A DNA stretch of 35,534 nucleotides, taken from assembly GCF_030732865.1 (NCBI RefSeq), contig NZ_JASHKB010000030.1:1-35534 (forward strand). The letters are read 5' to 3'. A model generated the notes under the pieces. That model had not been told where the DNA came from and made no database searches. It saw only the letters and a program-made list of their open reading frames with translations. The stretch comes from Roseitalea sp. MMSF_3546 (GTDB taxonomy: Bacteria; Pseudomonadota; Alphaproteobacteria; Rhizobiales; Rhizobiaceae). Both the position numbers and the translations under genes were made by a program. The first letter of the stretch is position 1. Every line of letters begins with the position of its first letter. Below are positions 898 to 35,534 of the stretch, piece after piece.

Positions 898-2127
898 TTA
901 AGCGGCAGTTGGTTCATTCAACGGATGCTCGTCTGCGCCTTCCAGGATTCGACGATAGATCGCCCTGTAGGCTGCAACGCCGCGCTCGAGCGAAAACACC
1001 TCTTCGGCAGCGCGGCGGCAGCGGGTAGACAGATCGGGATCTGCCAGCAGGGAATCGAGCGCATCGAGCGTTGCGTCCATGGCGGCGGCCGAACCGTCCG
1101 TGGCCAGGATGCCGACATTGTAGCGTTCGACGATCCGCGCCACATCGCCGACGCCGACATTGGCGATGACCGGAACGCCGCAGCCGAGAACCTCGCCCAT
1201 CCGGGTGGGCGATCGACCCAACTCCGATATCTCGCCCCCCGCATAAAGCATCGCAGAAACCGCGTGGCCTTGCACCGTTGCCGGCATGTCGGCCGGCGTG
1301 CGCGCATACACCGCCAAACGCTCAGCCGTCAGCGCGCCGCCCTGCACGGCGGCGCGCACCCGGCCCGGGTTGTCGCGTGTGGCAATCTCGCACCGGGCAT
1401 CGGGGTCGCGCCGGGCGGCCTGTTGGAAAAGCGCAGCGAGCCAATCGACCCGGAACCAGCCGCTCAGCACCGTTCCAACACAACCGTAAACGCGCTCCTG
1501 CGGCAGCTCGGCAGGCGGCTTGAAATGGTCAAGGTCCGCGCAAGTGGGGATCACTGTGGTGCGCTTGCCGGCGAGTTCCTTTGGATACTGCGCCTGCAGG
1601 TGCTCGACCGCGGCCTCGGTCAGGGAAACGACGCCGGCGGCATCGCGCAGGCAGATGCGCTCCAGACGCTGCAAGGCTCGATGGAGCACGGAGCCCCGCT
1701 TGATCCGGCCGGCCGTGATCAGTTCCTCCGGCCAGAGCGCGCGCATGTCGAAGATGAAGGGCGTTCCCGTAAGTCGCCAAACGCCCCAGGCCACGGCCGC
1801 GGGCAGATAGGACCGCGCGTGGATCAGTTCGGCCTTACCGGACCGCGCCGACCACAGGGCCCCCGCCCCCATCTGAGCCAGGCTCCACGCCGGCGCGATC
1901 AGGCGCGGACGCCGACGGAACCGCCGCGGGCGCCAGTCGATGCCGTGCGCCGCACAGTCCTCCCGAGCGCGCACCATCGCGGCGCTGTCGGCCATGTCCT
2001 CCGGCTTCTCGAAGGTGACTAGGATGATTGTATGGTCCCGCGCCAACCCGCGCAGGTAGTTCATCACCTGGCTTTGACCGAGCGGCTCGAGCAGGCCGTT
2101 GCGGGTGAGGTAGAGGGTGCGGGGCAT
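898..2127 (-). CDS. Glycosyltransferase family 4
   Basis: A 409-residue GT4 (GT-B fold) glycosyltransferase, likely cytoplasmic and membrane-associated, adding a sugar to the lipid-linked repeat unit. The N-terminus, TLYLTRNGLLEPLGQSQV, is typical of EPS-cluster GT4 enzymes that begin with this acceptor-domain strand. The middle contains FDMRALWPEE and a linker to the donor domain beginning GCVGTVLSGWF. The C-terminal domain has SPTRMGEVLGCGVPVIAN, corresponding to the conserved donor-binding E-rich segment. A TTG at 2139 would add four residues, but the ATG at 2127 matches the family start better. The upstream TupA-like gene stops at 2140, so the two are consecutive in one transcript. Donor and linkage cannot be read from sequence. 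Confidence 0.85.
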   Translation of the reverse strand: MPRTLYLTRNGLLEPLGQSQVMNYLRGLARDHTIILVTFEKPEDMADSAAMVRAREDCAAHGIDWRPRRFRRRPRLIAPAWSLAQMGAGALWSARSGKAELIHARSYLPAAVAWGVWRLTGTPFIFDMRALWPEELITAGRIKRGSVLHRALQRLERICLRDAAGVVSLTEAAVEHLQAQYPKELAGKRTTVIPTCADLDHFKPPAELPQERVYGCVGTVLSGWFRVDWLAALFQQAARRDPDARCEIATRDNPGRVRAAVQGGALTAERLAVYARTPADMPATVQGHAVSAMLYAGGEISELGRSPTRMGEVLGCGVPVIANVGVGDVARIVERYNVGILATDGSAAAMDATLDALDSLLADPDLSTRCRRAAEEVFSLERGVAAYRAIYRRILEGADEHPLNEPTAA

Positions 2128-2139
2128 GCGGAAGCCCAA

Positions 2140-3006
2140 CTATCTGAAAATCAACGAACTGAACCGCCGCTCCGCTTCACGAGTTTCGAAGCGACCATGT
2201 GCAGACTCGGGGCAGTGCGTGAGCTCAGCAACATAGACCTTGACGCCGTCTATGAAAAAATCAACTCGAACAAACTCAAATTCTGACGAGAGCTTCCGTG
2301 CCATATCCAGCATAAGATGTAGATTGTCGGGTGCTGGCTCCCTTTCTCCAACTGGAAAATTGTATGAGATGTCTATCGGCTGCCATGTTGCTGTGTAGAT
2401 CTTTCTCTTATGGTCCGAATGCCGCTCCGAGTCAACTTGAATGGCTTTCGGCTCGCCTCGGTAGCAAAAAACCTTGTAATCTTTCGTTGCTGCTCCGCTC
2501 GACAGCATCGGTTCGCAAACGATACGCCGCCTCAGATGCTTGTAGTTGGCTTCGCGGGCTGTGGTGTAGGGCGAAGTCGCCAGAGCGATCTGCAGCTTGT
2601 TTACGTCTCCTTCGGTGAGATGACCTTGATCGGCATCTACAAAAACGACCGAGCCGCTGCCATGCGCTGGCTTCAAAACGCAGGGCTTCGGAAGTTCATC
2701 TATAGTTATCTGGCTAACGTCATCATAGACCTCCGAGTGTGGAAGGGTGGCGTCCTGCCCCAACCGCTCAGCGACAAAGGACTTTAGGTAAACCTTATCT
2801 GATGTATATTGACGTAAGATATCGAGTAATTCTCCTGATGTCTTGAGAAAATACAGGTAATCGTTGAAGAGACCGCTACCCTTGCTCGGAAGGCGCTTGT
2901 GTGCATACACGAAAATTGTCAATAAGAAGAATTTATCCGTCAGCCGCCCTGTGGGAATGAGTTTTAACAGGCGGCGTAGCGTGTTCGTGATTCTTGCTTT
3001 AGGCAT
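2140..3006 (-). CDS. TupA-like ATP-grasp protein
   Basis: A 288-residue protein resembling the ATP-grasp family named after TupA of teichuronopeptide synthesis, common in polysaccharide clusters. Visible features are PCVLKPAHGSGSVVFV (ATP-grasp lysine and glycine loop), RRIVCEPML, DYKVFCYRGEPKAIQVD and FEFVRVDFFIDGVKVYVAELT, the last holding the acidic metal-binding residues. Members probably ligate an amino acid or related group onto a sugar carboxylate, although many are annotated loosely as glycosyltransferases. Uronic-acid precursors are made elsewhere in this locus, which would supply a carboxylate acceptor. It overlaps the upstream GT4 gene by 8 nt. The gene is visibly richer in A and T than the enzymes around 11 to 29 kb, suggesting separate acquisition. 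Confidence 0.8.
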   Translation of the reverse strand: MPKARITNTLRRLLKLIPTGRLTDKFFLLTIFVYAHKRLPSKGSGLFNDYLYFLKTSGELLDILRQYTSDKVYLKSFVAERLGQDATLPHSEVYDDVSQITIDELPKPCVLKPAHGSGSVVFVDADQGHLTEGDVNKLQIALATSPYTTAREANYKHLRRRIVCEPMLSSGAATKDYKVFCYRGEPKAIQVDSERHSDHKRKIYTATWQPIDISYNFPVGEREPAPDNLHLMLDMARKLSSEFEFVRVDFFIDGVKVYVAELTHCPESAHGRFETREAERRFSSLIFR

Positions 3007-4087
3007 CTGCGAGGAGCCTTAAGTAGTGCGCCGCTTGCTCTTCTGCCGCGAAGTCGGCGGCGCGTGCTTTTAGATCGGTATTGCGCCATCTGTCACGTAA
3101 GGTTGCCGCGACCGCGCGTGCGATGGCCCCCGGATCGCCGACTGGCACCAGGCGGCCGTAGTCTCCGTCTGAGAGGATCTCCGCCGGGCCAGAGGGACAA
3201 TCGGTCGAGACGACCGGCACGCCGGCGGCGAGCGCTTCGACGATGACGTTGCCGAAGCCCTCCCAGTTGGAGGACAGGACGAAGACATGGGCCTGCTGCA
3301 GGAACGTCACCGGGTTGGGGCGGAAGCCGGGCATCCACAGGCTGTTGGCGACACCGAGATCGCGGGCGAGCGCCTCCAGGTCGTTGCGTAGGGAGCCTTC
3401 CCCAAGAATGAGCAGCCGTGCGTCATGGTGGCGACGCAGCTCGGCAAGAGCGTGGAGGAGGACGTCGTAGCCCTTCTGCCGCTTGAGCGTGCCGACGGCG
3501 ATCAGGCGCGTCTCACCCGCGAGCCAGCCGTTGAGGGCGCGGCGGTCCTCGTCGGTCATGGTGTCCGGCGCCATCAGGCGGACCGGGTTGTGTATGACTT
3601 CGATCTGATTGCGGGGCACGCCGGCGACCGCTCTCAGGCTCTCCGCGACACCATCGGAGACTGCAATGACACGATGGCAGGGCGCGTAGATACGGCGCCC
3701 GAACCGCTTCAGAGCCCGGCGTTCGAATGCTTTGAGCGAGGGCGTGATGCGAAAATCGACGTGCTCGCTCGCGACGAGGCGCCCGCGGTAGCCCGACAGG
3801 CGGGCAGCGAGGCCGGCGATTCCAGTGAGCGGCCACATGGCGGCGAGGAGGGCATCTGGCCGCTGTTCCCGCAGATAGCGTGTCAGCCGCAGAGGCGCTT
3901 GCCGCATCCGCGCGCAGCCGAGCGACCGGACAGGAAACCGCGCCTCCGCCTCTGCCAGTAGCTGCCCCCGCGCCTGCAGCAGCACGAAACTCACAGCGTA
4001 GCCCTGACGCACGAACTCCTCTGCGAGAACGAGCCGAATGCGTTCCACGCCTCCGCCGCGCAGGTCAGGCAGGAGGATGTCGATCAT
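2999..4087 (-). CDS. Glycosyltransferase family 4
   Basis: A 362-residue GT4 enzyme. It starts MIDILLPDLRGGGVERI, with the glycine-rich acceptor-side loop of GT-B enzymes. The donor domain has AVGTLKRQKGYDVLLHAL, ILGEGSLRNDLEALARDLG and SNWEGFGNVIVEALAAGVPVV, which contains the EX7E motif (E of WEGF and E of VEALA) that binds the nucleotide sugar. The ATG at 4087 overlaps the stop of the preceding GT2 gene in an ATGA arrangement, so translation is probably coupled. Length and domain order are complete. The sugar transferred is unknown. Confidence 0.9.
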   Translation of the reverse strand: MIDILLPDLRGGGVERIRLVLAEEFVRQGYAVSFVLLQARGQLLAEAEARFPVRSLGCARMRQAPLRLTRYLREQRPDALLAAMWPLTGIAGLAARLSGYRGRLVASEHVDFRITPSLKAFERRALKRFGRRIYAPCHRVIAVSDGVAESLRAVAGVPRNQIEVIHNPVRLMAPDTMTDEDRRALNGWLAGETRLIAVGTLKRQKGYDVLLHALAELRRHHDARLLILGEGSLRNDLEALARDLGVANSLWMPGFRPNPVTFLQQAHVFVLSSNWEGFGNVIVEALAAGVPVVSTDCPSGPAEILSDGDYGRLVPVGDPGAIARAVAATLRDRWRNTDLKARAADFAAEEQAAHYLRLLADA

Positions 4088-31642: not shown

Positions 31643-32515
31643 ATGGCCCAGCCAGCCCCTCCCGCACCGCCTGCCAACAAGCCCGCCGCGCCGCAGGCAA
31701 AGGGTGCCGCGCCGCCTGCGAAAAATGTGGCGCCGCCTGCCAAGCCCACGCCGCCGGCAAAGGGTGCCGCGCCGCCTGCGAAGAACGTCGCGCCGCCTGC
31801 CAAGGCCACGCCGCCGGCAAAGAGTGCCGCGCCGCCTGCCGAAAAAACCGCCGCGCCGCCTGCCGACAAGCCCGCGCCGCCGGCAAAGAGCGCTGCGCCG
31901 CCGGCAGAGAGTGTCGCGCCGCCCGCCGAAAAAACCGCCGCGCCGCCTGCCGACAAGCCCGCCGCGCGGCCCGCCGGCGAGATCGTCACCGACCTTCTGC
32001 CACCGCTCGACCTGCTGCCCGACGAGGATCCCGAGCAATACGCGCTGTTGCGCGAGGCGGTCGTGTCCGAACTGTCGCCGAGCACACCCTACCAGCGCAT
32101 CTACGCGGACCAGCTGGTCATGTTGGAATGGGAACTTTGGCGGTATCGGCGTTTTCGCGACGGTTTCATACGGGAGAAGTTCCGACAATGGTGCCTGGAC
32201 AACATGAGAACGGGCATCCCGGACGGTGAGCCGCGGTTCTCAGCCAACCAGGACGATCGGCAGTTTGCGCGCGACTGCGTGAGTGCAGACACCAAGCTCA
32301 GGGCCATGGCCCTGGCGGCCCTCGAGAGAGCCGGCTATCCGCCCTCGCAGATCGTCAACGAGATCTATTCGCTTCATGGCGGGCGGCTCGAGCGCTGCGA
32401 TGCCCTGATCGCGGAGATCGAGAACCGGCGGCGTCGATTGCGCGAGGATTTCGACCGCCTCAAATCGGCGAAGGCAAGGCAGATCGAGGATGCCGAAGTC
32501 CTGGAGGTCCGATGA
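31643..32515 (+). CDS. Pro/Ala-repeat protein with conserved alpha-helical C-terminus
   Basis: A 290-residue protein with a good GGAG site 7 nt before the ATG at 31643. Residues 1 to about 110 are built of PPAK/PPAE/PPAD units joined by short spacers (for example KGAAPPAKNVAPPAKPT), low-complexity and without a signal peptide. From about 115 to 290 it is charged and helical: LLPDEDPEQYALLREAVVSE, LVMLEWELWRYRRFRD, AALERAGYPPSQIVNEIYSL and ENRRRRLREDF. The helical part is of a kind often found immediately before RRANAR-type proteins. Its stop overlaps the next start as ATGA. No function is known; repeats of this sort can act as flexible linkers or bind nucleic acid or peptidoglycan. Confidence 0.7.
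   Translation: MAQPAPPAPPANKPAAPQAKGAAPPAKNVAPPAKPTPPAKGAAPPAKNVAPPAKATPPAKSAAPPAEKTAAPPADKPAPPAKSAAPPAESVAPPAEKTAAPPADKPAARPAGEIVTDLLPPLDLLPDEDPEQYALLREAVVSELSPSTPYQRIYADQLVMLEWELWRYRRFRDGFIREKFRQWCLDNMRTGIPDGEPRFSANQDDRQFARDCVSADTKLRAMALAALERAGYPPSQIVNEIYSLHGGRLERCDALIAEIENRRRRLREDFDRLKSAKARQIEDAEVLEVR
31685..31970 (+). repeat. In-frame GC-rich tandem repeats coding PPA-K/E/D units
   Basis: A run of related units around a GCGCCGCCTGC(C/G) core recurs about every 15 to 30 bases, and a longer unit (AAGGGTGCCGCGCCGCCTGC, then GAAGAA/GAAAAA and AAGCCCACGCCGCCGGCA) is repeated with few changes near 31698 and 31758. The run codes the Pro/Ala part of the protein above. It is expected to vary in copy number between strains. 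Confidence 0.8.
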
Positions 32516-33096
32516 CCACCGATCGCCAGCGCCGGGCGAACGCACGCAACGCCCAGAAGAGCTCGGGCCCCAAGACCGAGGCCGGCCAGGCACGTTCTGC
32601 GCAAAACGCCCGCAAGCACGGTCTTTCCAGCGCCGCGCCGGTCGAGGCCACGCTTGCCTGGTTCCGCCTGATCATCGATGAGCCGACCGCGTCGCTCGAT
32701 CCGTTCGACGGTTCACCGCGCAAACAGGCGGCGATCAAGCTGGCGGCCGCCGAGGTCCAGCTTGCACGGGCCCTGAAAGCCGAACGCGACCACATCGCCG
32801 AATTCAACGCCCGTGTCATAGGGCACTCCGAGGCCGACTTTGCGGTCGTGAACGATCGCGACCTCGACCCGATGGAGCAGCTGATGCGGTTGGTCAATTT
32901 CGACTGGGCCAGCCACTATCGCGCGCAGGCCGAGCGCTTGCAGAACGAACAGGCCTGGCCGCTATCGCGCGAAGGGCGGCTCTTGCGGCGCTATCGCCGC
33001 GAGGCCGAATCGCGCCGGCGACGCGCCCTCAGGGACTGGATCGCGCTCAATGGCGAAATCCCGAAACGAACCCGAACACAACCGGAGGCCGCATGA
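32512..33096 (+). CDS. RRANARNAQ-type small basic protein, function unknown
   Basis: A 194-residue protein whose start, RRANARNAQKSSGPKTEAGQ followed by ARSAQNARKHGLSS, is a widespread N-terminal signature (R-x-N-A-x(2)-S-T/S-GP-x-T-x-GK/GQ-x(2)-S-x(2)-N-A-x(2)-HGLS) seen in proteobacterial and planctomycete proteins of unknown function. The rest is helical with conserved MRLVNFDWASHYRAQAERLQ and LRRYRREAESRRRRALRDW. It begins ATGA-overlapped with the Pro/Ala gene, and its own stop overlaps the next ATG the same way at 33093-33096. The last residues, GEIPKRTRTQPEAA, come from the first copy of the AATCCCGAAACGAACCC repeat. The function is unknown; the N-terminus is basic enough to bind nucleic acid. 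Confidence 0.75.
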   Translation: MTTDRQRRANARNAQKSSGPKTEAGQARSAQNARKHGLSSAAPVEATLAWFRLIIDEPTASLDPFDGSPRKQAAIKLAAAEVQLARALKAERDHIAEFNARVIGHSEADFAVVNDRDLDPMEQLMRLVNFDWASHYRAQAERLQNEQAWPLSREGRLLRRYRREAESRRRRALRDWIALNGEIPKRTRTQPEAA

Positions 33097-33340
33097 ACCG
33101 GCTCGCATATCATGCCGACAACGACCGGCAGGGTCGGCACCGCGGCGCGGCCCTGCCGCGGCAGGCACGTCCGGCCGACATCGGGGTAGGCGCCCGGAAT
33201 CCCGAAACGAACCCAATCCGACGCCGGGCCTGCGTCACATGAAGGACCAGGACAATGATCGGCAACCGATCAAATCCCTGAAAAGGCGCTTCGCCGTGCC
33301 GAACGCCAGCCAGGACACCGAAATCCCGAAACGAACCCGA
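33055..33340 (+). repeat. Three-copy AATCCCGAAACGAACCC repeat
   Basis: GAAATCCCGAAACGAACCC at 33055-33073, GGAATCCCGAAACGAACCC at 33196-33214 and GAAATCCCGAAACGAACCC at 33320-33338 share 18 or 19 bases with spacings of 141 and 124. Each copy sits close to the stop of one of three ATGA-linked ORFs. It is read as EIPKRTR in copies 1 and 3 and as NPETNP in copy 2. Between copies 1 and 2 are two hairpins: TGCCGAC/GTCGGCA at 33113-33139 and CCGCGGC/GCCGCGG at 33140-33161. Between copies 2 and 3 is GATCGG/CCGATC at 33257-33271. The same motif, read KRTQ, NEPN or ETNP, is one I associate with ends of such proteins in other genomes, from memory only. Confidence 0.8.
33093..33242 (+). CDS. Mini-ORF 1 of ATGA-linked cassette (49 aa)
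   Basis: A 49-residue ORF whose ATG overlaps the stop of the RRANARNAQ gene (ATGA, 33093-33096) and whose TGA overlaps the next ATG (33239-33242). It reads MNRLAYHADNDRQGRHRG, continues through a basic middle, and ends ARNPETNPIRRRACVT, with the repeat coding NPETNP. It has no signal peptide or known domain. The double ATGA link argues for real translation by re-initiation; the high GC and hairpins within it leave room for a purely regulatory role. Another frame (33050-33364) is also open here. Confidence 0.45.
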   Translation: MNRLAYHADNDRQGRHRGAALPRQARPADIGVGARNPETNPIRRRACVT

Positions 33341-33364
33341 TTTTTGGCTTTGAGCTGTGTTTAA
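33239..33364 (+). CDS. Mini-ORF 2 of ATGA-linked cassette (41 aa)
   Basis: A 41-residue ORF starting MKDQDNDRQPIKSLKRRF at the ATGA overlap 33239-33242 and ending DTEIPKRTRFLALSCV at 33364. DNDRQ is shared with mini-ORF 1 (ADNDRQ), and EIPKRTR with the end of the RRANARNAQ protein. It is basic, with no known domain. A longer frame opening at 33050 contains it as its C-terminal part, so the start is uncertain. It is the last member of the linked series. Confidence 0.4.
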   Translation: MKDQDNDRQPIKSLKRRFAVPNASQDTEIPKRTRFLALSCV

Positions 33365-33564: not shown

Positions 33565-34251
33565 ATGGCGCTGCTGGGCCTTCTTGGGCTGCTTGTTCTG
33601 GCCGCCGCGGTGCTCTTGCCGCAAATGTGGGTGCGCCGCGTCATGGCGCGCCACGGGGCGGCGCGCGCCGACTTTCCCGGCACGGGCGGAGAACTGGCCG
33701 AACACCTGATCGACCGGTTCGGGCTCGACGGCGTCGGCGTCGAGACGACCGATGGCGGCGACCATTACGATCCCGAAAGCCGCACCGTGCGCCTTTCGGC
33801 GTCAACCCATGGCGGCGCCAGCCTGACCGCGGTGGCGATCGCCGCGCACGAGGTCGGCCACGCCATCCAGCACGCCCGCGGGGAGACCGGGCTCCGGCTG
33901 CGCCAGGCGCTGGTGCGCCTTGCCCGCGTCAGCGACCGTTTCGCCGCGCTGTTCTTCATCGCCGCCCCGATCCTGACCGTCATCGTGCGCTCGCCCGGCG
34001 CGTTTGTCGGCCTGGCCGCGATCGGCATCGCGCTGCTGTCAGTGCGCGTGCTGGTGCATCTGGTCACCCTGCCGGTCGAATATGACGCAAGCTTCTCAAA
34101 GGCCCTGCCGATCCTGAAGGACGGCGGCTATCTGCGCGAGAAGGATCTGGGTGGCGCCCGCCAGGTGCTGAAGGCCGCGGCATTGACCTATGTCGCCGGC
34201 GCGCTGGTCAGCCTGATCGATCTTGCGCGCTGGGCACGGCTGCTGCGCTAG
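33565..34251 (+). CDS. YugP-type zinc metallopeptidase (neutral zinc metallopeptidase family)
   Basis: A 228-residue membrane protein. A first helix ([20 protein letters not shown]) leads to a soluble part with [32 protein letters not shown] and [15 protein letters not shown]95-EVGH-99 is the zinc-binding HExxH. Two or three more hydrophobic segments follow (about 125-160 and 205-222), separated by [18 protein letters not shown], which holds the E-x2-AS block of the family. It fits the YugP/PF04298 class of membrane zinc peptidases, whose substrates are poorly known. GGAG lies 10 nt before the ATG. It stands alone, upstream of a convergent tRNA gene. Confidence 0.88.
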
Positions 34252-34339: not shown

Positions 34340-34416
34340 TGGTCGGAGTGGCAGGATTTGAACCTGCGACCCCCTCGTCCCGAACGAGGTGCGCTACCAG
34401 GCTGCGCTACACTCCG
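34340..34416 (-). tRNA. tRNA-Pro (anticodon CGG)
   Basis: A complete 77-nt tRNA on the minus strand. The acceptor arm CGGAGTG/CACTCCG is followed by discriminator A and an encoded CCA. The D-arm contains AGCCTGGTAGCGC, the anticodon stem CCTCG/CGAGG encloses TTCGGGA with anticodon CGG, and the T-arm has GCAGGTTCAAATCCTGC. All stems pair. It decodes CCG, as expected in a GC-rich genome. tRNA genes are frequent integration sites, and an IS3 remnant lies about 220 bases away. Confidence 0.97.
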
Positions 34417-34634: not shown

Positions 34635-35534
34635 TCATCCACCTGAAGCTAGAGTGCGGCGGTTAGCATGGCGCTTGCGCGCCGACGTAGCAATGGGCGA
34701 TCCGCTCGGCGGTTCGGGTGCGCAGAGCGGGGGGCCCATTGCGGTGAGTTGGGCGGCGTAGGCCGCGGGTGTTGTGTATCCCAGGGCTGAGTGGGGACGG
34801 TGCTGATTGTAGTCGGCGACCCAACGCGCCACCGCCTCTCTTGCCTGATCCAGGTCGAAGAACAGCGTCTCGTTCAATAGCTCGTCCCGCATCCGGCCGT
34901 TGAACGCTTCGCAGATTCCGTTCTGCATTGGCTTGCCCGGGGCAATGAAATGCCAGGCGACGCCGGTCACCTGGGTCCATTCGAGCATGGCGTTCGACGT
35001 GAACTCGGTGCCGTGATCGCTGACGATGAGCCCGGGCTTTCCGCGCCGCGTCCCAAGGGCACCGAGCTCCCGCGCCACCCTTTTGCCGGAGATCGAGGTA
35101 CCGACCACGGCCGTGAGGCATTGCTTGGTCACATCATCCACCACGTTCAGGATGCGCAGGCGCCGGCCGGTGACGAGCTGGTCGTGCACGAAGTCGACAG
35201 ACCAGCGCGCGTTCGGCAGGGCCTCGACGAGGATCGGCGCCCTGGTCCCCGTCGCCTTCTTGCGGCCCCGCCTTCGTCGCACCGTCAGCTTCTCCTCGCG
35301 GTAGAGCCGCTCGGCCTTCGACTTGACCACCTCACACTGTGGCCGGCGCGCCTCGTCATCGGCTGGCGTCATCTGCCCCTTGCCGGGAAACGCTCCGACA
35401 GGATCTTTCCCAAATTGCTTGATCCTGCGACGAAGTACTGTCCATGAACATCAAGGTCGCGGGCGGCATGCGCCACGCTCACGCCGCACATCGTCACCAA
35501 GTGAAGCGCTTCCGTCTTGAATTGTAAGCGGTGT
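34635..35534 (-). pseudogene. IS3-family element, frameshifted and deletion-fused orfA-orfB
   Basis: From the window edge the minus strand reads the start of an IS3 OrfA: QFKTEALHLVTMCGVSVAHA followed by ARDLDVH, its helix-turn-helix. A frameshift near 35446 moves the frame to [34 protein letters not shown] and VVKSKAER. The chain then jumps directly into OrfB at [20 protein letters not shown], so the zipper end of OrfA and the start of OrfB are deleted. OrfB then continues with all DDE residues: [22 protein letters not shown] and [20 protein letters not shown], ending at 34635. The single open frame from 35372 would give 245 residues, but normal transposition needs OrfAB, so it is probably dead. 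The element continues past the window. Confidence 0.85.

Follow-up and report, generated by a model that had tools for sequence, protein, structure and literature searches.

Why should three consecutive open reading frames (ORFs) each finish just beyond a copy of the same short repeat? The question is raised by a 35,534-nucleotide stretch of DNA from Roseitalea sp. MMSF_3546 (contig NZ_JASHKB010000030.1), to which we refer, at its full length, as the window. The original prediction, made from the letters of this stretch, described four forward-strand ORFs linked by ATGA overlaps at positions 32512, 33093, and 33239. All three coordinates were confirmed. The first ORF, gene A (31643 to 32515), encodes a Pro/Ala-rich N-terminus (about 31650 to 31980) and then a helical domain. 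The second, gene B (32512 to 33096), encodes 194 residues with the N-terminal sequence RRANARNAQKSSGPKTEAGQARSAQNARKHGL. We gave the name RANA to this B-type (RRANARNAQ) family. Mini-ORF 3 (33093 to 33242, 49 residues) and mini-ORF 4 (33239 to 33364, 41 residues) follow. Our answer, which we think is probably correct, is that the operon encodes a two-subunit form of an undescribed family, RANA, for which the repeats serve as the cognate DNA site. Together, these would make up a gene-plus-repeat system resembling repetitive extragenic palindromic (REP) sequences and the REP-associated tyrosine transposases (RAYTs).

The 17-letter sequence AATCCCGAAACGAACCC occurs exactly 3 times in the window, always on the forward strand and with 0 mismatches. 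Across 100 dinucleotide shuffles of the window, matches with up to 3 mismatches averaged 0.16, and no shuffle reached 3. The triplet is far above chance. As a direct repeat the match extends over 22 nt, with exact copies at 33054 to 33075 (core 33057 to 33073), 33195 to 33216 (core 33198 to 33214), and 33319 to 33340 (core 33322 to 33338), spaced by 141 and 124 nt. These lie within the 3' end of gene B, within mini-ORF 3, and within mini-ORF 4, respectively. As predicted, all three ORFs end just past their copy, with stops 23, 28, and 26 nt further on. The reading frames had also been assigned correctly; ORFs 2 and 4 translate the repeat as EIPKRTR, and ORF 3 as NPETNP. In the window the motif takes the form AATCCCGAAACGAACCCGA, and the repeat is a local version of a motif of about 16 bp with a consensus close to CGAAACRAASCCAATT.

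RANA is a large family with members in several phyla. Of 199 genomes from the window's taxonomic family, 8 had a match to B at E 0.01. Strong matches were confined to the source genome and to a second genus, g20, in which three genomes had 4–5 matches each. Among 72,556 plasmid records, the B protein matched Sulfitobacter (two records) and Gemmobacter, and a 100-residue query from another RANA protein added Marivivens, Planctomyces, and Picosynechococcus. When the operon DNA was compared with plasmids, matches were weak or short, and 0 of the 179 matching records reached 80% coverage. A broader RANA profile matched 16 of 289 genomes in the window's class (probably Alphaproteobacteria, to judge by the relatives), some only partially. 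Finally, a profile scan of 84,980 species genomes produced at least 596 candidate stretches and 387 confirmed relatives, of which the best 80, a non-random sample, were used below. These come from Planctomycetota, Acidobacteriota, Chloroflexota, Alpha-, Gamma-, and Deltaproteobacteria, Rubrobacteraceae, Armatimonadota, and others.

In the 80 loci, words were counted without a prior motif, from 200 bases before to 400 bases after the stop, leaving out nine viral loci. The top 10-mers were AACGAAGCCA (downstream in 18 loci and upstream in 0), AACGAACCCA (15 and 3), and AAACGAACCC (14 and 3). The core AAACRAASCC, a shortening of a pattern fixed before the 80 loci were fetched, was tested on 73 loci; the remaining 7 had too little sequence past the gene start. 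Exact cores were present downstream in 39 of the 73 loci (57 sites in 76 kb), compared with 3 loci upstream (3 sites in 70 kb) and none farther downstream (67 kb). Shuffles of the same stretches gave a mean of 0.83 loci with the core and a maximum of 4. A looser pattern, counted in unshuffled sequence, was found in 51 of the 73 loci: 14/14 from Planctomycetota, 21/33 from Acidobacteriota, 3/3 from Chloroflexota, 6/10 from Alphaproteobacteria, and 7/13 from the rest. We conclude that motif and RANA gene are associated across several phyla. Note that all nine loci in which gene A directly precedes gene B have a motif match within 2 mismatches. The first copy is 471–669 nt past the B start in eight of these, and a weak one is at 965 in L046.

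The original prediction held that the DNA or RNA sequence, rather than the peptide, is what has been kept. Core matches occupy both strands (39 forward and 19 reverse) and, within ORFs, all three frames (13, 6, and 4). Similarly, the spacings of motif arrays in genomes G488 and G548 leave every possible remainder when divided by three. In g20, all 11 near-full RANA gene copies that were read are followed once or twice by TCCCGAAACRAAGCCAGAT or a close relative; the first is translated as FPKQSQ or close, and the second as SRNEAR or SRNKAR. A short g20 fragment (L040) has no repeat. Since the motif appears on both strands and in every frame at other loci, we agree that the DNA, and not the peptide, is kept. 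In public hypothetical proteins, peptides like KRTQF, NEPNF, and TNPI are frequently encountered. The consensus is non-palindromic, and pairing between its flanks is weak and unconvincing. A hairpin, formed by ATTG/CAAT pairing around the core, was considered and rejected; the signal was weak, and confounded by family relations, with near-identical instances removed (265 reduced to 196).

Copies of the motif are also dispersed through carrier genomes. When no more than one mismatch was allowed, copy numbers of 473, 300, 142, 107, and 100 were found in five of the 20 RANA-carrying genomes, where a reversed-pattern control gives 0–3. Three g20 genomes have 44–62 copies (controls 8–11) and ten others have 6–50 (controls 0–3). 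For 26 of 30 sampled sites, a pattern scan found no RANA segment within a locus of up to 3 kb; some of these sites, inside ordinary coding sequence, may be chance matches. Arrays occur as well, with 8 copies 44 or 56–57 bases apart in G121 and 10 copies 83–93 bases apart in G488. In G528, 12 copies of a unit, roughly 140–200 bases long and containing two motifs, sit in different surroundings. The likeness between units ends at CAATTCAAAGCCAA in about half, and the rest share some 30 bases more. Degenerate 7–8 nt tandem repeats, ACTGATAACTGACAACTGATG, CTCCTGACTCCTGACTCC, and AACTAAGAACTACGAACTA, are found in and around these units (L224–L234 and L243). An array after argB occupies the same place in three g20 species (G019, G121, and G191) with differing copy numbers. 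Hence, arrays are passed on by descent too, and their copy number changes. The downstream neighbour of RANA locus L026 was not found in G019 or G191 (the latter 79% complete), so neither genome offers an empty site there.

One could argue that the motif acts in regulation, as a DNA or RNA element serving RANA and other genes (an autoregulatory binding site, say, or a 3'-end or terminator-like element), that it was multiplied by ordinary duplication, and that RANA is a regulator with no part in dispersal. The position of the motif near the gene end, and the persistence of the argB array across three species, are what such an element might produce. Less easily accommodated are the 100–473 copies in five genomes, arrays of up to 10 copies, the occurrence of the motif in either orientation, and the 18 RANA places in a single genome. 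Nor does the weak flank pairing favour an RNA element. Rfam covariance models matched only a tRNA in the window, leaving the repeat without a known RNA family. We regard a regulatory element as unlikely, albeit the strongest of the competing explanations.

If the repeats are the cognate site of RANA, motif and gene should travel together. In the class to which G488 belongs (61 genomes), five genomes have RANA: G488, G548, G512, G528, and G555. These have 20, 11, 2, 2, and 1 matches at 18, 11, 2, 1, and 1 places; note that match counts treat pieces of one gene separately and that some G488 matches have internal stops. The same genomes hold 306, 1, 3, 33, and 13 exact copies of AAACRAASCCAATT. 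Among the 56 genomes lacking RANA, exact AAACRAASCCAATT occurs once in each of 3 and is absent from 53, with the reversed pattern found 3 times in all. Hence, in this class, the motif is restricted to RANA carriers. The outlier, G548, has a variant of its own. Of its 11 RANA loci, 10 contain GCCGAACGAACCCGAG with up to 3 changes, at 25 sites that are all on the minus strand. A 400 kb chromosome sample (20 of about 360 possible 20-kb stretches, none holding its 11 RANA places) contains 29 sites within one change of CCGAACGAACCCGAG, compared with 0 for the reversed control. Gene-linked and dispersed sites in G548 share one lineage-specific variant. Further variants are AAACGAACCCGAGC, at 5 of 8 given loci in G329 (one of nine places, L073, was dropped as almost the same as L072), and AACAGACCCA, at 5/5 acidobacterial loci, four of them from one genome. 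The G329 and acidobacterial variants could stem from shared coding sequence. In the window's class, allowing one mismatch, G227 has 25 sites (control 3), G358 has 17 (control 1), and G329 has 0.

We turn now to the coupling of the genes. With its Pro/Ala part removed, the gene A profile aligns with the central helical domain found in single-chain RANA proteins from other phyla, for instance in L153 (E 5e-9) and L127 (E 1.8e-8), over 57–76 profile positions. For this reason, sequence comparison identifies gene A as a RANA relative that lacks the N-terminal RANA segment. In L025, a 493-codon open frame (1775 to 3254, minus strand) with two tandem gene A domains lies just upstream of the RANA gene. 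In the window, the A stop and B start share the ATGA at 32512 to 32515. At all nine A-B loci, the A stop and B start overlap or touch, with offsets from -2 to +8 (ATGA, GTGA, TGATG, or longer). Note that these nine are all the loci found with A directly before B, and that four (L025, L026, L037, and L038) are from one genus. The arrangement appears to be a conserved coupling of two related genes, presumably at the level of translation. Because of this coupling, A and B probably form one complex of two subunits.

The later overlaps behave differently. Gene B stops at ATGA in only 3 of the nine A-B loci: the window, L045, and L026, where it lies about 900 nt beyond the motifs. In L038, the B frame runs off the locus end. 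Across both strands of the window, ATGA is found at 77 of 329 stops (23%) of frames of at least 60 codons. The rate at the B stop is about that expected by chance and, with ATGA so common, two further overlaps in a row are a roughly one in twenty (5%) event. Judging by the ORF list, the ATGA statistics, and the comparison of A-B loci, mini-ORFs 3 and 4 are probably not conserved genes. These observations bear on the mechanism first proposed, in which successive tandem duplication of a 3'-end unit, carrying stop, repeat, and start, made the coupled mini-genes. Consistent with duplication, ATGA is present at both extra junctions and DNDRQ is encoded in both mini-ORFs, with 12 of 14 bases identical around it. 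Outside the 22-nt repeat, however, the two mini-ORFs have no significant similarity; the best alignment score, 10, was reached by 13% of shuffles (P = 0.13). Taken with the chance-like frequency of ATGA at the B stop, this led us to abandon the duplication model, which we consider the least probable of all those discussed here, although a weak trace of duplication may exist.

What kind of protein might RANA be? Gene B belongs to no Pfam or NCBIfam family and matches no PADLOC model (a PADLOC search of five proteins gave nothing), and PHROG matches to B were at chance level only (E 0.046 and up). Similarly, none of ten RANA relatives matched Pfam at the curated cut-off, the best hit being unrelated (E 0.00095), and no RANA match was found among Protein Data Bank (PDB) sequences. 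The open-licence literature contained no description of the motif or family. As papers rarely print sequences in their text, this absence argues only weakly for novelty. The models of B (mean predicted local distance difference test score, pLDDT, 74.5; predicted template modelling score, pTM, 0.41) and of the relative in L132 (mean pLDDT 78.5; pTM 0.59) are both helical, the latter with two long helices in a row. In each, two short N-terminal helices are joined by an STGP.T turn and followed by longer helices. The conserved N-terminal segment, RANA..STGP.T..GK...NA..HGL, is thus predicted to be helix-turn-helix-like. RANA may resemble the NUMOD3-type DNA-binding motif, though no NUMOD3 match was listed for B or for any of the ten relatives with a cut-off as loose as E 10 and HMMER's filters on.

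Viral relatives offer a further hint. A 100-residue RANA query found no match in 50,697 phage records, and nine contigs of a viral collection carry RANA relatives. Those on L155–L157 are fuller, and L155 and L157 have the motif. On L158–L160, L162, and L163, proteins share the N-terminal RANA segment (about 35 residues). The next gene in L160 encodes a terminase large subunit (phrog_2, E 2.8e-11), and this neighbour hints that the segment binds DNA. Proteins of L158, L162, and L163 have weak small-terminase family matches (E 0.01–0.07), and the viral segment proteins are perhaps an unrecognised small-terminase family. Might RANA itself be a relative of phage small terminases, and the motif a relict packaging signal, pac or cos-like? 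The shared segment, helical models, and fuller viral relatives are in keeping with this and, in a viral structure library, the best match of the L132 model was a small terminase, at E 0.12, with nothing below E 0.1. Against such an origin, the likeness covers just those 35 or so residues and the fold matches are insignificant. Furthermore, only one site, with a mismatch, lies beside L158/L159 and none beside L160–L163, whereas bacterial genomes hold hundreds of copies. No large terminase was recognised among the window ORFs. We consider a packaging origin very improbable.

Tyrosine recombinases suggest another possibility. Genes of one family lie no more than 3 kb from RANA; they are upstream and divergent in L046, L047, L258, and L049, and downstream on the same strand in L075/L054 and L076. 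A remnant is present in L045. Some of these loci also have a small helix-turn-helix-like gene. The motifs could then be attachment or recombination sites for the recombinase, much as in integrons, with RANA an accessory and the ORFs between motifs acting as cassettes. Integron attC sites likewise form same-orientation arrays at the 3' ends of short ORFs. Yet no such gene was detected in the window or other loci by tblastn with three of the RANA-linked recombinases as queries (flanks of 1.5–5 kb, E 1e-4; other recombinase families and integron integrases were not searched). Array spacings are also irregular, and the motif is unlike what we take to be the attC consensus. An integron-like system is, in our judgement, doubtful, a little more so than a regulatory element.

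The genome from which the window derives provides some context. Its only repeat array is at the window locus, and other exact 12- or 13-mer matches are single sites. Two of these appear, by eye, to be in coding regions. Three more, at or near the ends of contigs C26, C36, and C41 (L041–L043), are in common sequence containing GAAACGAACCCGATCC, and in L043 this is beside a transposase-like frame. The GAAACGAACCCGATCC sites were set aside as motif look-alikes in common sequence that is, presumably, transposon-like. Near the right end of the window are a tRNA gene (34343 to 34416, minus strand) and then a transposase-like frame (34635 to 35372, minus strand). Four congeners (L245–L248) have a small gene, which we assume to be lipoprotein-like, upstream of the Zn_peptidase_2 gene (33565 to 34251 in the window). 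No such small gene was found in the window, where A, B, and the repeats take its place. Hence, the region differs within the genus. Comparison with the four congeners revealed no clean boundaries of an empty site, and no B was found in the two that were searched (G099 and G173).

How closely does all this resemble known gene-and-repeat systems? REP sequences (GTAG REPs are treated by Di Nocera et al. 2013, PMC3733652) are palindromic repeats of 20–40 bp, with a GTAG or CGTC end tag, and are associated with a tyrosine (HUH) transposase, TnpA-REP. Like these, the RANA motif is short, sited at its cognate gene, restricted to carriers in the tested class, clustered, and patchy across phyla. High copy number is a feature of several RANA carriers, but not of the source genome. 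In contrast to REP sequences, the RANA site is about 16 bp and non-palindromic, with no GTAG or CGTC tag in the motif or flanks. Moreover, the motif core is alike between phyla, and RANA proteins have no tyrosine-transposase (HUH) match. Because the palindrome, tag, and transposase are all missing, we do not file RANA as REP-RAYT. The original prediction could name no known system with this layout, and we agree that something here has yet to be named. The findings point to an unrecognised gene-and-repeat system.

If RANA and its site are such a system, the following mechanism is conceivable. B, together with A, would bind the site of about 16 bp, of which one to several copies are located close to the 3' end of the cognate gene. 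In many carriers, the site has been amplified, singly or in arrays, and numbers tens or hundreds of copies. The A-B complex might help to copy and spread the site with a further enzyme. Alternatively, it might hold or regulate sites that spread otherwise. The tyrosine recombinase is a candidate partner only in the subset of loci bearing it. A role for RANA in spreading the site is suggested by analogy. More tentatively, and with slightly less than even confidence, we propose that RANA and CGAAACRAASCCAATT represent a new gene-and-repeat class. Here, a small non-transposase protein family, present as either a single chain or two coupled subunits, would recognise a short, non-palindromic site and cause it to multiply and its arrays to grow. 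Site and protein would drift in step within each lineage, across many bacterial phyla.

Several observations weigh against pairing RANA with the motif in this way. In the window's class, the exact 15-mer occurs in 2 of 16 genomes with RANA hits (some partial) and in 13 of 273 without; the 18 exact sites, compared with 17 for the reversed pattern, are at chance level. Even the looser motif is missing from 22 of the 73 loci, and two of the 20 carrier genomes, G329 (with its own variant) and G500, have no match. No dispersed copies were found in the source genome. The shared site position in paralogous G548 genes may partly reflect common descent, which does not explain the dispersed sites. Our sole between-species comparison, the position of the argB array, gives no apparent sign of recent jumping. 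Finally, RANA has no match to a catalytic domain or to a solved fold, with no PDB fold below E 0.1 for either model.

On balance, we continue to favour RANA and the motif as a cognate pair. Shared by Planctomycetota, Acidobacteriota, Chloroflexota, and Proteobacteria, the pair may explain odd hypothetical ORFs in which the motif is translated in different frames. Were the pairing causal, bacterial genomes would have a second way, unrelated to the RAYT-REP one, of coming to hold hundreds of dispersed short repeats. Sites and binding proteins that match each other would then also be available from nature.

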